Assembly: GCF_963678975.1 (NCBI RefSeq)
Contig: NC_089275.1
Coordinates: 34,234,226-34,298,225, forward strand
DNA length: 64,000 nucleotides
From: Dysidea avara
Taxonomy: Eukaryota > Porifera > Demospongiae > Dictyoceratida > Dysideidae
Direction: 5' to 3'
A program made the position numbers and the translations under genes. A model generated the notes under the pieces. It saw only the letters and a program-made list of their open reading frames with translations. It was not told where the DNA came from and did not search any database. Of the stretch, positions 3,886 to 8,513 are shown piece by piece (the first letter of the stretch is position 1; each line of letters opens with the position of its first letter).

Positions 3886-4059
3886 TTTAATGCTTTGGAC
3901 AGCAGCAGATGTTTCTCCTTTTATATCTCTATGGGCAATAAGCCACTTGTTTTCTTCTCTTAGTGTTTCCAATTGTCGCTCTATCATCTCAATCTTAGAG
4001 TCTTTCTGAGATAATTCTTCATGCAGCAAACTGTACTCTACTTTGTTACTCCTCAATTT
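3886..4059 (-). CDS. Coiled-coil exon of the CARD-containing gene
   Basis: Predicted exon of 174 bases, phase 0 at both ends, with a TTTCAATAG acceptor and a GTATGT donor. It encodes 58 residues rich in Lys, Glu, Gln and Leu (KDSKIEMIERQLETLREENK), which is a textbook coiled coil for oligomerisation or partner binding. It follows the 4131-4214 exon in the same phase and so is taken as the same transcript. No stop codon is seen before the donor, so at least one more 3' exon must exist at lower coordinates; it was not found. The family is not recognised. Confidence 0.6.
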
Positions 4060-4130
4060 CTATTGAAACAAAACATATGCACACAGTCAAATTTGAAGGC
4101 ATGCATTAATATAATAGCATTTGATTTTAC

Positions 4131-4214
4131 CTCATTCAGTTCATCATTTTGTTTATATACTTGATTAAAATCTGATTTCAAAGTGTCATATTGTTTTTGC
4201 TGCTGGGTCCATTC
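4131..4214 (-). CDS. Small coiled-coil exon
   Basis: An 84-base, phase 0-0 exon (28 codons) between acceptor TGATCACTACAG and donor GAG|GTAAAA. The peptide begins EWTQQQKQYDTLKSDF and continues in the same heptad-like style as the next exon. It is too short for a normal open-frame search and was found by splice sites and phase agreement with its neighbours at 4577 and 4059. Confidence 0.55.
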
Positions 4215-4576
4215 CTGTAGTGATCATTAATTCACAATGAGTCACAAATTTGATAATCGTACATGAAATACAACAATGTCGGCTCTTAGAAGCGCAATAA
4301 CAGCATGTAGGCTACAAGATCACAAAGTTAAACAGTCATGGTGGAAAACTTATTAGTGCAGTAAGTTTATGCTCTACTGTATTTCATCTAACACTTGAGT
4401 ATACACATGTACCAAGAAGCTACTTTATTACTGCAGTTAAATTATGCAATAAAACTGTACCTATACATGAATACACTGCACACATTGTGACACAACCATT
4501 AGTTATATAATACTCTTGTATGTAATCTAGTACACTTGAATATCTACTACCAACTTTACATGTTGCACTGACTTAC

Positions 4577-5490
4577 TTGTTTTGATAGAGTGACATTATC
4601 ACTGCTAAATGTTGTTGACCAGATTTGGTTGGTGTTGCTAGTCAAAAATGAAAAGTTAGGGCATATGGCAAGTTCTGTTAATCCATGTTGTAGTAAATCA
4701 CCAGAATGTTCTTGTACACCATTAATAATAGTTGAAACAACACTCCTTGGGATTAACCAAAAGAACACAGCAGAGCTGTGGTCAGCAACAGCCAGTAATG
4801 TACAAGCATGTTTAGTAATATTTAACTTGTTGATTATTAATGACTTGACCACTCCAATGTGCTTTAGTAGCAATGAGGATAATGACTGCATGTATTTAAC
4901 AACCATCACAGTGTGAGTACTAGACTCATCAGGGGTCATGAGATTGGAAGGAACAAGTATAGGATACTCTGTGATGGGTAGAGAGACATCAATCCGAGAG
5001 TCAAACTCATCTAATAACTTCACACCTTCAGCACAATCACAAGCTTCTACCAACTCCCTAATAATGGAGTGATCATACCAGTTGGTGTATGGGAACAATA
5101 TCCTCAGTAGTGAAGTAGTGCTAGAGCATTCTCTTAACTTCTCAATGAAGTCAGTAGTGAAATAATTAATACCATGTGTATCACTTGCAGTAATGTCACT
5201 AAGCACATCAATAATTTCATTTGGATTTAAACACTGTAACAACTCAACTATACTGTCAAACAAATCAAGATATTTAAGCAACATATTGGATGGTTCAATG
5301 TACTCAAATATGGCTGTACCATACAAGTCTGGTAATAAGGGGGGTTGCAGTTTGCCTTTGGTAACTTTAAACCCTTCTACATCTGTATAATCATACTCAA
5401 TTGGATGAAGTCTTTTCAGATCTATGGAGTTTGGTTCAGAAGCTCCATCTGTGTGATACTCTAATATCCTGAATCCCTTGGAGTTAAAAT
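4577..5490 (-). CDS. Exon encoding the second copy of unnamed domain X
   Basis: Exon of 914 bases, acceptor ATTTTTTAG and strong donor CAA|GTAAGT; it starts in phase 1 and ends in phase 0. It encodes about 304 residues. A variable lead contains a proline-rich LQPPLLPD. Then come a helical block around SSTTSLLRILFP, and a C-terminal beta-alpha block with the signature WLIPRSVVSTI. The same order of blocks occurs in the exon at 7833-8513 (SSMDDIFQNI, then WIIPSCLVDYA), so the two look like diverged duplicates of one domain. From memory, similar domains sit beside DEATH domains in sponge gene models; that was not verified. Function unknown; context suggests an immune or cell-death adaptor. Confidence 0.65.
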
Positions 5491-5564
5491 CTAAAAAATA
5501 ATTATATATAAATCAGGTGAATATGCTTACTGTATAAACACCATTGGTATACACATGTATGTAC

Positions 5565-5842
5565 ATACACACACTGAACACGCACACACTGTACATACAC
5601 ACACTGAACACGCACACACTGTACATACACACACTGTACATACACACACTGTACATACACACACTGTACATACACACACTGTACATACACACACTGTACA
5701 TACACACACTGTACATACACACACTGTACATACACACACTGTACATACACACACTGTACATGCACACACTGTACATACACACACTGTACATACACGCACT
5801 GTACATACACGCACTGTACATACACACACTGTACATACACAG
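5565..5842. repeat. 15-base minisatellite
   Basis: About 18-19 tandem copies of a 15-base unit (ACATACACACACTGT and close variants) in the intron between the CARD exon and the 5490 exon. The unit length is a multiple of three and lacks stops, so several frames read as long pentapeptide repeats. These are not genes. Each unit contains the palindrome TGTACA. Confidence 0.95.
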
Positions 5843-6003
5843 CTAACATAGTGCATGATTTGAGTATGTATGAATGAAATGTACAAACCAATTTTTTACC
5901 CACGAATTACATATGTGCAGAATACACAAACATCTGTTATTATACTACCATGCTACCATTAAAAATATACTGCACGTATGTATATAGATTGAATGGTTTA
6001 TAC

Positions 6004-6270: not shown

Positions 6271-6355
6271 CTGTAAAAAAATGAACATACTCATATACAA
6301 AGGTAACTATATACACATGTAGATACATACTGTACATACATACATGCACATACAT

Positions 6356-6550
6356 ACACAAGTATAAAGAAAAATTAGAAATTTAAGTTCGATCAGGGGT
6401 CATAGGAATGAAAAGTAGGGAAAAAGGGAGGTCACCTACGCCTGCAGATATACTAGTGGTGGGTATAGGCTGAATTAGGGATTAACAAAGTCCACTACTT
6501 TTATTTCTAGGATCCCTAATCAAACTAATATTTCCTTATACTTGTTTACT
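6356..6550. mobile_element. Fold-back MITE, ~190 bases
   Basis: The arms start ACAAGTATAAAGAAAAATTAG on the left and end CCTTATACTTGT on the right, pairing over about 65 bases with mismatches, around a centre holding CACCTACGCCTGCAGATATACTAGTG. Same family as the fold-backs near 10.3, 39.3 and 53.5 kb. It lies inside the intron upstream of the CARD exon and abuts repeat R1. Confidence 0.7.
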
Positions 6551-7395
6551 TACGTTTTTGCAACATTATTACGACCGGTGAACTCATGCATATACCACAT
6601 CAAAAGAAAGGATGGTGCCACAGTTACTGTTTTCATCTGAATGCACACCACAGGCATTAATTACTGACTCAAAAGTGAAGTAACCATCACGCTTCACTAT
6701 CAGCTATGTTCACCCTGCTATACTTATACAGAACTATAAATAAAGAACAGTATATAGGAAAAGCACCTTTGCAATCAATCCAGTCACCACGAAAAATACG
6801 GACGATCTGCAAGCCCCAACTACTCGAGATTAAACAGTGGCCATTATGCTTTACTTTCACCTATTTCAGTGAAAGTGAAGTGTTACACAGTGCACAGTGT
6901 TACAAATGAAGAACAGTGTGAGAAGCATCTCTGCAATTAATCCAGTTGTTACAGAAAATACGGGCGAGATATATACCAATACAGCCACAGGAAAGTCGCA
7001 TCGTTCTGTCACGAATCGACACCTTGCGTTGTCAGCGAAAGCACTGGAACACAAAGGAGGACAAAAGGCAAGTCCATGATGTGTGTATTGTATGCACTAC
7101 GGTTGGAAAAAAGGCACATGTCAGGACAAAGTGATGTCAGAAATCAAGCCCGTAGCTATATCTATTGCTTGGCTGAAGGCATCAGTTAGTCAGAATAAAA
7201 TTCTGTTAAATACAAAATGTTTAAAATTCCATAGAAATTTTATGGAAAGGTTTGGGGTTGGTCTGAAGACATTTTTGGGCTTGGCTGTGCCTAACCAATG
7301 ATGTCAAGTTGTCATGAAGGGAAATTGAGGCTGGTTTTAGAGTAATATTTTTGGCTGGAAAAGCCTAGTTCTTTATGATCCCTAATGTACAGTAC
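6551..7395 (-). repeat. Repeat R1 copy, intronic
   Basis: Copy of the most abundant interspersed family in the window, reversed relative to the 9.2-10.2 and 38.3-39.1 kb copies. Shared landmarks (on the complement) are a palindromic start around TACAGTA/TACTGTA followed by GGGATCAT, the block CAGTATTGGTTAGGCACAGCC, and an end with GTTCACCAGTCATAATAATG and AAGTAAACAAGTA. No transposase or reverse transcriptase frame is seen, so it is non-autonomous. All peptide-like frames in it are remnants or chance. Confidence 0.75.
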
Positions 7396-7421
7396 TACTG
7401 TACATACATACACGTACATAT

Positions 7422-7636
7422 GGTACTGCCCAAGCGCAACATCACACACGCAATTTTGCTTGAGATTTTTAAAATTGCTAAGTAAGGGGTGTGGCAACTA
7501 TTTCGCTTGTGATTCTCATGAGCAAAACAGCTGCCACGCTGTCTTGCGATCAACACAGTTGCCACACCCCTTAATTAGCAATTTAAAAAAAATCTCAAGC
7601 AAAATTGCATGTGCGACGTTGCATTTGGGCAGTACC
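7422..7636. mobile_element. Fold-back MITE with GGTACTGCCCAA ends
   Basis: Arms of about 85 bases begin GGTACTGCCCAA on both strands and include CAATTTTGCTTGAGATTTTT and AAGGGGTGTGGCAACT in each arm. The centre is about 40 bases. It sits between repeat R1 and the CA microsatellite in the intron before the CARD exon. Confidence 0.8.
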
Positions 7637-7802
7637 ATACATACATACATACATACATACATATATACATTACATACATACACACATACATTAATACACA
7701 CACACACACACACACACACACACACACACACACACACACACACACACACACACACACACACACACACACACACACACACACACACACACACACACACACA
7801 TA
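7637..7802. repeat. CATA and CA microsatellite
   Basis: Imperfect CATA repeats pass into about 55 uninterrupted CA dinucleotides. On the minus strand this is a GT run that begins about 30 bases after the predicted splice donor of the 7833-8513 exon. Confidence 0.97.
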
Positions 7803-7832
7803 CAGTAGCTGCAAATACATCTACACACATAC

Positions 7833-8513
7833 TTATCACAGAATCATTGGGAGTTTCCACTGTGTATCTTCCAATTGTTACATACATCAAATTCAATTCT
7901 GAAAACATCTTAGTATTAAGACAAGCTGCATGATAAGCATAATCAACCAAGCAAGATGGAATTATCCACCTTATACAAATACATCCTTCTTCAATGCATT
8001 GTGGCAATACTGCACCAGTGTAAAGGCAAAGGATATTATTTTCGAGTTGAACTGTAAATCCATTAAGCTCACCAATCGTCACATTCTTCTTTTGTAACTT
8101 GGTAACCAATTCACTACAGTTTTTATCCTCTATAAGCACCTGTATTTTCTTTATCATAGCTCCCATACTTTGGGTAAGTCGCATTAGTCTCAATGGTGAA
8201 AATGTCAACTCGTAATTTTTCACAGACTGGATTAAGCACTTGTTCCTAGAAAGCCCTGCCAAATATTTTAATAAACTTGGATTGAGGAAGTTATGATGTG
8301 GTAGTGCACTGATATTCTGAAATATGTCATCCATTGAAGAAACTGTATTAAAAGAGGTCTGTACTCCAAGCATTTGACAATAATTTTTGCACCAACGACT
8401 GACATCAGCTATCTTTACACCAGGATATCTTTTAAACTCCTCTAAAAAAGTTTCAGTTAAAATTTCAAATGCTATAAACATCTCTTGATCGGGTGTGAAT
8501 TCAAGTGGATTGG
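7833..8513 (-). CDS. Exon encoding the first copy of unnamed domain X
   Basis: A 681-base exon, phase 1-1, acceptor TTATATTTGTAG and donor GATAA|GTATGT. It encodes about 226 residues with no stop. Helical stretches (FIAFEILTETFLEEF; SSMDDIFQNI) are followed by a beta-alpha block ending WIIPSCLVDYA...LNLMYVTIG. The arrangement matches the 4577-5490 exon at low identity, indicating an old intragenic duplication. The frame stays open past the donor into the GT microsatellite, but the upstream GTATGT donor keeps phase 1 with the CARD exon and is preferred. No catalytic motif is visible. Likely a scaffold or ligand-binding module in a death-fold adaptor; function unknown. Confidence 0.65.

Follow-up and report, generated by a model that had tools for sequence, protein, structure and literature searches.

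What kind of protein is encoded by the minus-strand exons that, in a 64,000-nucleotide stretch of the genome of the sponge Dysidea avara (NC_089275.1; C4:34234226-34298225, the whole of which is hereafter called the window), place a CARD-like domain between two copies of a module, X, ahead of a coiled coil? A preliminary description of this DNA had proposed the order X-CARD-X, and the order proves real: the five exons concerned have AG and GT at every boundary, compatible phases and a joined frame that is open over 707 codons. They encode, in order, X1 (7833..8513, phase 1-1, with intact splice sites), whose helical half is followed by a TRADD-N-like half bearing a GC motif before WIIP, then the CARD (6004..6270, phase 1-1), X2 (4577..5490, phase 1-0) and two coiled-coil segments (4131..4214 and 3886..4059, both phase 0-0). 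The heptad contrast of both tail exons combined was equalled by 4 of 300 shuffles, and the gene continues past the second tail exon to an end that was not located. The architecture as first described was right about X-CARD-X and the coiled coil after it; what it overlooked is an upstream Death exon (16503-16249), which, like the coiled-coil end, probably belongs to the same gene. With about an even chance, in our estimate, the product is a cytosolic signalling adaptor arranged as Death, linker, X1, CARD, X2 and coiled coil.

X1 and X2 are homologous, judging by a profile-profile comparison that aligns 207 columns with an expectation value (E) of 9.7e-10 at 10% identity, and the relatedness of the two copies at low identity, suspected earlier by inspection, is thereby borne out. 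The AF2 model of X2 is confident over approximately residues 70-270 and comprises six helices and, after them, a βαββαβ sandwich. These helices are predicted at residues 68-164, and the second half is predicted to run E192-199, H209-222, E230-236, E240-247, H248-260 (with a short H262-267) and E270-276 (E, strand; H, helix), i.e., as an RRM-like sandwich of four strands and two helices. Among 30 X2 and 19 X1 members no curated Pfam family was recognised for X, and only scattered weak matches were returned. The earlier view of X as an unnamed domain stands insofar as no curated family claims it, and has to be qualified insofar as X has a probable known relative, the TRADD-N domain.

According to Kaur, Iyer, Burroughs and Aravind (2021; PMC8195603), TRADD-N folds into an RRM-like sandwich whose β2-β3 turn carries a uS or uC motif; the domain is coupled to Death-like ones and has expanded in Amphimedon, where 357 proteins contain it. 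Comparison of the second half of X with human NCOA6 TRADD-N gave an alignment of 43 columns that starts at the turn preceding the W-x-I-P strand and reaches the last strand, with a probability of 73.6% and an E of 2.9e-5, a score that none of 100 shuffles reached. The probability was 50.2% with the whole of X and 38.6% with fewer X members, so that the signal increases with diversity. The uS/uC motif is found in all 19 X1 rows, in 10 of the 30 X2 rows, that of the window included, and in eight of nine rows of a third group (one more being gapped). Several results weigh against this assignment. The Ser or Cys of the motif is missing in 18 of the 30 X2 rows; DEDD and TRADD sequences did no better than their own shuffles (45 of 60 and 54 of 60 as high, respectively); PF13820, PF20694 and PF09034 had no match at E 5 in the 30 X2 and 19 X1 members; curated TRADD-N models matched none of five family consensuses at E 10; and genome searches with PF13820 and PF20694 came back empty, although the blank for PF13820 does not show absence. 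X may thus be a separate module whose second half has merely a common ferredoxin-like arrangement, in a protein that would still be a Death/CARD adaptor; we hold this to be a minority possibility, given that the NCOA6 score rose from 25.8 to 30.6 on adding divergent X members, again with 0 of 100 shuffles as high, and that the motif has the same position relative to the W-x-I-P strand as in NCOA6. ACT domains are among the weak matches to X, and the published TRADD-N searches matched ACT and dystroglycan folds as well (PMC8195603). The second half of X is most likely a divergent TRADD-N domain of the NCOA6 type; because DEDD, TRADD and the curated models gave no match, we name X TRADD-N-like and refrain from listing it among the members of the family. 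The retention of the motif in X1 and the lack of its Ser or Cys in 18 of the 30 X2 rows suggest that the two copies may do different jobs.

The first half of X was compared with the DED. The 24 DED places of the genome include none at any of the 59 X1 or 117 X2 places (lists compared by eye). The likeness of the helical half to a DED is weak and concerns the register of its final two helices, hhalign giving a probability of 1.8% that 1 of 100 shuffles equalled. Pfam DED (PF01335) likewise had no match in the 30 X2 and 19 X1 members or in five family consensuses. As a separate observation, 21 of the 24 Pfam DED matches lie in a tandem cluster at C9 3.19-3.50 Mb.

The middle exon is a CARD by its predicted fold, a six-helix death fold with a split first helix, with modest support from sequence. 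Seven APAF-1 CARD sequences were the top matches of the family profile among PDB sequences (E 0.0032-0.0048), and the CARD-like character first attributed to this domain is confirmed to that extent. The Pfam CARD model matched one of 25 family members (best E 0.0019; 17.7 bits at that locus, against a cut-off of 23.9) and gave no match to the CARD exon of the window. The intron between CARD and X2 contains a minisatellite of about 16 bases per unit (approximately 5550-5850, minus strand), seen by eye.

The idea that this gene stands alone, without relatives, has to be abandoned, as dozens of genes of the family occur in the same genome. The searches covered 550.8 Mb in 108 contigs, and the family sizes are lower bounds, for which the best 130 of 199 candidates were scored for X2 and the best 150 of 217 for the enlarged X1 list; a few of the counted places are two pieces of one exon. 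There are at least 117 X2-like places and at least 59 X1 places, or at least 146 X1-like places after a divergent X query was added. The CARD exon matched at least 37 places, with X2 downstream in all 37 and X1 upstream in 26 with the first X1 list and in 35 with the enlarged one, bearing in mind that these triads allowed distances of up to 32 kb and that some may span more than one gene. In the first list, 48 of the 59 X1 places have a same-strand X2 within 25 kb downstream (one X2 being counted for two X1 places) and a single pair has the reverse order. In the enlarged list of 146, X2 lies within 25 kb downstream in 75 and within 25 kb upstream in 5, and an N-myristoyltransferase lies directly downstream in 35. 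Frames resembling coiled coils, picked by composition, follow X2 in L034, L035, L036, L039 and L043, among other loci. The heptad test was equalled by 2 of 300 shuffles for the L034 tail and failed for those of L016 and L019. The existence of a large X-CARD-X gene family makes a family of immune adaptors more likely than an isolated oddity.

Does the Death domain belong to the same protein? The Death exon (16249..16503, minus strand, phase 1-1) scores 25.0 bits with Pfam PF00531, above the curated cut-off of 22.6. Between it and X1 a tentative linker exon (14717..14872, minus strand, phase 1-1) is indicated by its AG/GT bounds and fitting phase, and upstream of it a possible first coding exon, equally tentative, offers an ATG and a GT donor of phase 1 (19109..19154, minus strand; MASTSLMEIVPYGKT), so that all three upstream exons, on the same strand, are phase 1-compatible. 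Farther upstream, the next recognised gene is of the NACHT-LRR type, its long frame ending at 28257. The nearest paralog (C4 35.286-35.308 Mb) has a Death exon followed by X1, CARD, X2 and both coiled-coil exons; this Death exon lies approximately 14 kb upstream, inside segments aligned to 17403-15550 of the window, and shares 86% amino acid identity with that of the window over 84 codons (dN/dS 0.57). A tblastn search of the linker exon against this paralog gave no match, and the first nine bases of the possible first exon are absent from the 10 kb piece upstream of it.

The Death exon may alternatively be part of another gene, in which case the protein would be X1-CARD-X2-coiled coil and closer to the CARD-coiled-coil nucleators of the CARD9/CARD11 type. 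We consider this less likely than not, though it draws support from the approximately 6 kb of repeat-rich DNA between the linker exon and X1, several stretches of which match other loci at 92-95%, from the linker exon not being conserved, and from six other C4 paralogs in which the 3-9 kb retrieved ahead of X1 held no Death exon. Against it stand phases that agree throughout, a Death exon in collinear position in the nearest paralog, and two more X1-CARD-X2 loci with a Death exon at 11-16 kb upstream, although one of these exons also lies downstream of a different X1 place. For genome-wide counts the best 150 of 653 Death candidates were scored, a set that misses weaker Death exons, including the one in the window. 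In that set, Death lies within 30 kb upstream of X2 in 12 pairs and downstream in none, with 2 pairs on opposite strands; 8 of the 12 involve weaker X2-like places on C4 that form a third, Death-X group. With X1, Death is upstream in 3 pairs but downstream in 1. We infer from collinearity and phase that Death and X1 are in one transcript, and the Death-X1-CARD-X2-coiled coil arrangement is retained below.

The gene is under purifying selection: compared with the nearest paralog, the ratio of nonsynonymous to synonymous substitution rates (dN/dS) is 0.34 overall (786 codons), and 0.57 for Death, 0.24 for X1, 0.57 for CARD, 0.37 for X2, and 0.45 and 0.50 for the tail exons. This value, together with five window exons that are open with intact splice sites, makes it improbable that the locus is in decay, as one copy among a larger family, and makes no functional protein, a reading to which the repeat-rich introns and an in-frame stop that interrupts one of the coiled-coil exons in the nearest paralog would lend themselves. 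The two coiled-coil exons are 79% and 88% identical to those of that paralog, respectively; the first carries the stop there and has no GT donor at the corresponding place, which detracts from the proposed end of the protein and leaves the tail less certain than the other parts. The history of the exons also appears to be mosaic. In trees of seven C4 genes, X1 joins the 35.30 Mb gene with the 33.85/33.48 Mb pair and separates it from the window gene (support 81), whereas its CARD and X2 each group with the window gene with a support of 100, and the synonymous distances between these two genes are 0.475 for X1, 0.041 for CARD and 0.121 for X2. The conflict between trees and these distances fit an exchange of phase 1-1 exons, and suggest that exons may have been exchanged among paralogs.

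How might such a protein work? What was computed directly is the exons and their order, their recurrence, the homology of X1 and X2, the predicted CARD fold and the purifying selection; the signal and every binding step that follow are put forward as a model. By analogy, the best reading is that of an adaptor working from Death to CARD, comparable in function to RAIDD or ASC and regulated through X as a bridge. The Death domain would receive a signal by homotypic contact with a Death-domain receptor, plausibly a Death-NACHT-LRR protein such as that apparently encoded at 28257-35591, on the same strand. The coiled coil would cluster the protein, and the CARD would then nucleate a downstream CARD partner, e.g., a caspase; the adaptor role with an oligomerising tail proposed at the outset fits this arrangement. 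Each X, a helical bundle plus a TRADD-N-like sandwich, flanks the CARD and might hold it inactive until the signal arrives, much as TRADD-N has been proposed to be a bridge that touches the domains on either side until a signal brings about its rearrangement (PMC8195603).

The neighbourhood of the gene supplies a candidate receptor. A NACHT-LRR gene (28257-32094, minus strand) is preceded on its strand by a Death exon (35319-35591), with which it presumably forms one gene, and this Death exon is 33% identical to that of the adaptor (E 1.6e-12). A second, similar NACHT-LRR copy (48862-52356 and 55669-55920, minus strand) is spread over several reading frames and is apparently degenerate; its Death-like exon gave no Pfam match. 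Elsewhere in the window, an 884-codon open frame on the minus strand (61349-64000), which we take to resemble a retroelement polyprotein, extends past the window edge, and two alike short frames, EDKRKDKVQ...THWNPK, at 2444-2665 (minus strand) and 44295-44609 (plus strand) are probably a dispersed repeat.

X is also found in a setting of another kind, as a divergent copy that precedes N-myristoyltransferase (recognised by Pfam NMT and NMT_C, with a best E of 8e-21 in one search and 3.2e-29 in another). At 35 of the 39 N-myristoyltransferase places an X lies upstream on the same strand with a gap of 61-304 bases, and the spacing keeps the frame in 34 of these 35; stops are present in some of them. 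The joint frame was followed in full or nearly so in L054 (365-2095, minus strand), L055 (1-1443, minus strand), L072 (116-2158, minus strand) and L073 (396-2102, plus strand). Three of the four remaining places adjoin one another at C3 760 kb and look like ordinary N-myristoyltransferase exons; the fourth, L074 (880-2199, plus strand), has, by eye, what may be the last part of an X, in frame with the enzyme. No word starting with myristoyl or NMT occurs in the main text of PMC8195603, and among the publication titles listed for N-myristoyltransferase in sponges or Amphimedon none points to such a fusion. With a probability well below even, X is an undescribed switch module used in at least three kinds of protein, namely Death-X, X-CARD-X-coiled coil and X-N-myristoyltransferase. 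If so, it would belong to an immune system in which a switch linked to death folds governs protein lipidation as well as CARD assembly. The X-N-myristoyltransferase fusions, should they be active, would indicate an effector arm directly testable by enzyme assay.

Among known systems, RAIDD/CRADD and ASC are two-domain proteins that use two different death-fold domains to turn one homotypic signal into another. The adaptor proposed here resembles them in having two distinct death-fold domains in one protein, and differs from them in its two additional X modules and its coiled-coil tail. CARD9 and CARD11 are CARD-coiled-coil proteins that cluster through the coiled coil, and the likeness is that here, too, an oligomerising coiled coil could control the activity of a CARD. 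A third point of comparison is the NLRs of sponges that carry Death or CARD domains; the study of Dysidea avara that counted Pfam domains and NLRs (PMC12909245) deals with genome content of the kind also present in the window, where NACHT-LRR genes have Death exons. The adaptor differs from these in that no NACHT or LRR was found with its exons and that Pfam has no family for X. Any pipeline built on counts of Pfam domains would miss X altogether, and with it a large share of the death-fold signalling repertoire of this genome, and a defined Death-CARD adaptor family would supply NLRs of the sponge type with candidate downstream partners. The combination of Death-like domains with TRADD-N and its expansion in a sponge is already known (PMC8195603). 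The arrangement X-CARD-X with a coiled coil does not appear in the text of that work consulted here, whose figures and supplements may list the same architecture, and among the other publication titles listed none describes it. The Amphimedon TRADD-N proteins of the NCOA6 clade share with the present family a big lineage-specific expansion, the order of Death-like domains followed by TRADD-N, a variable C-terminal part and the RRM-like sandwich with its uS/uC turn motif (PMC8195603). That work reports that TRADD-N tends to occur as a single copy between two other domains, whereas here, beyond the reach of the Pfam TRADD-N models, two TRADD-N-like copies flank a CARD and are followed by a coiled coil.

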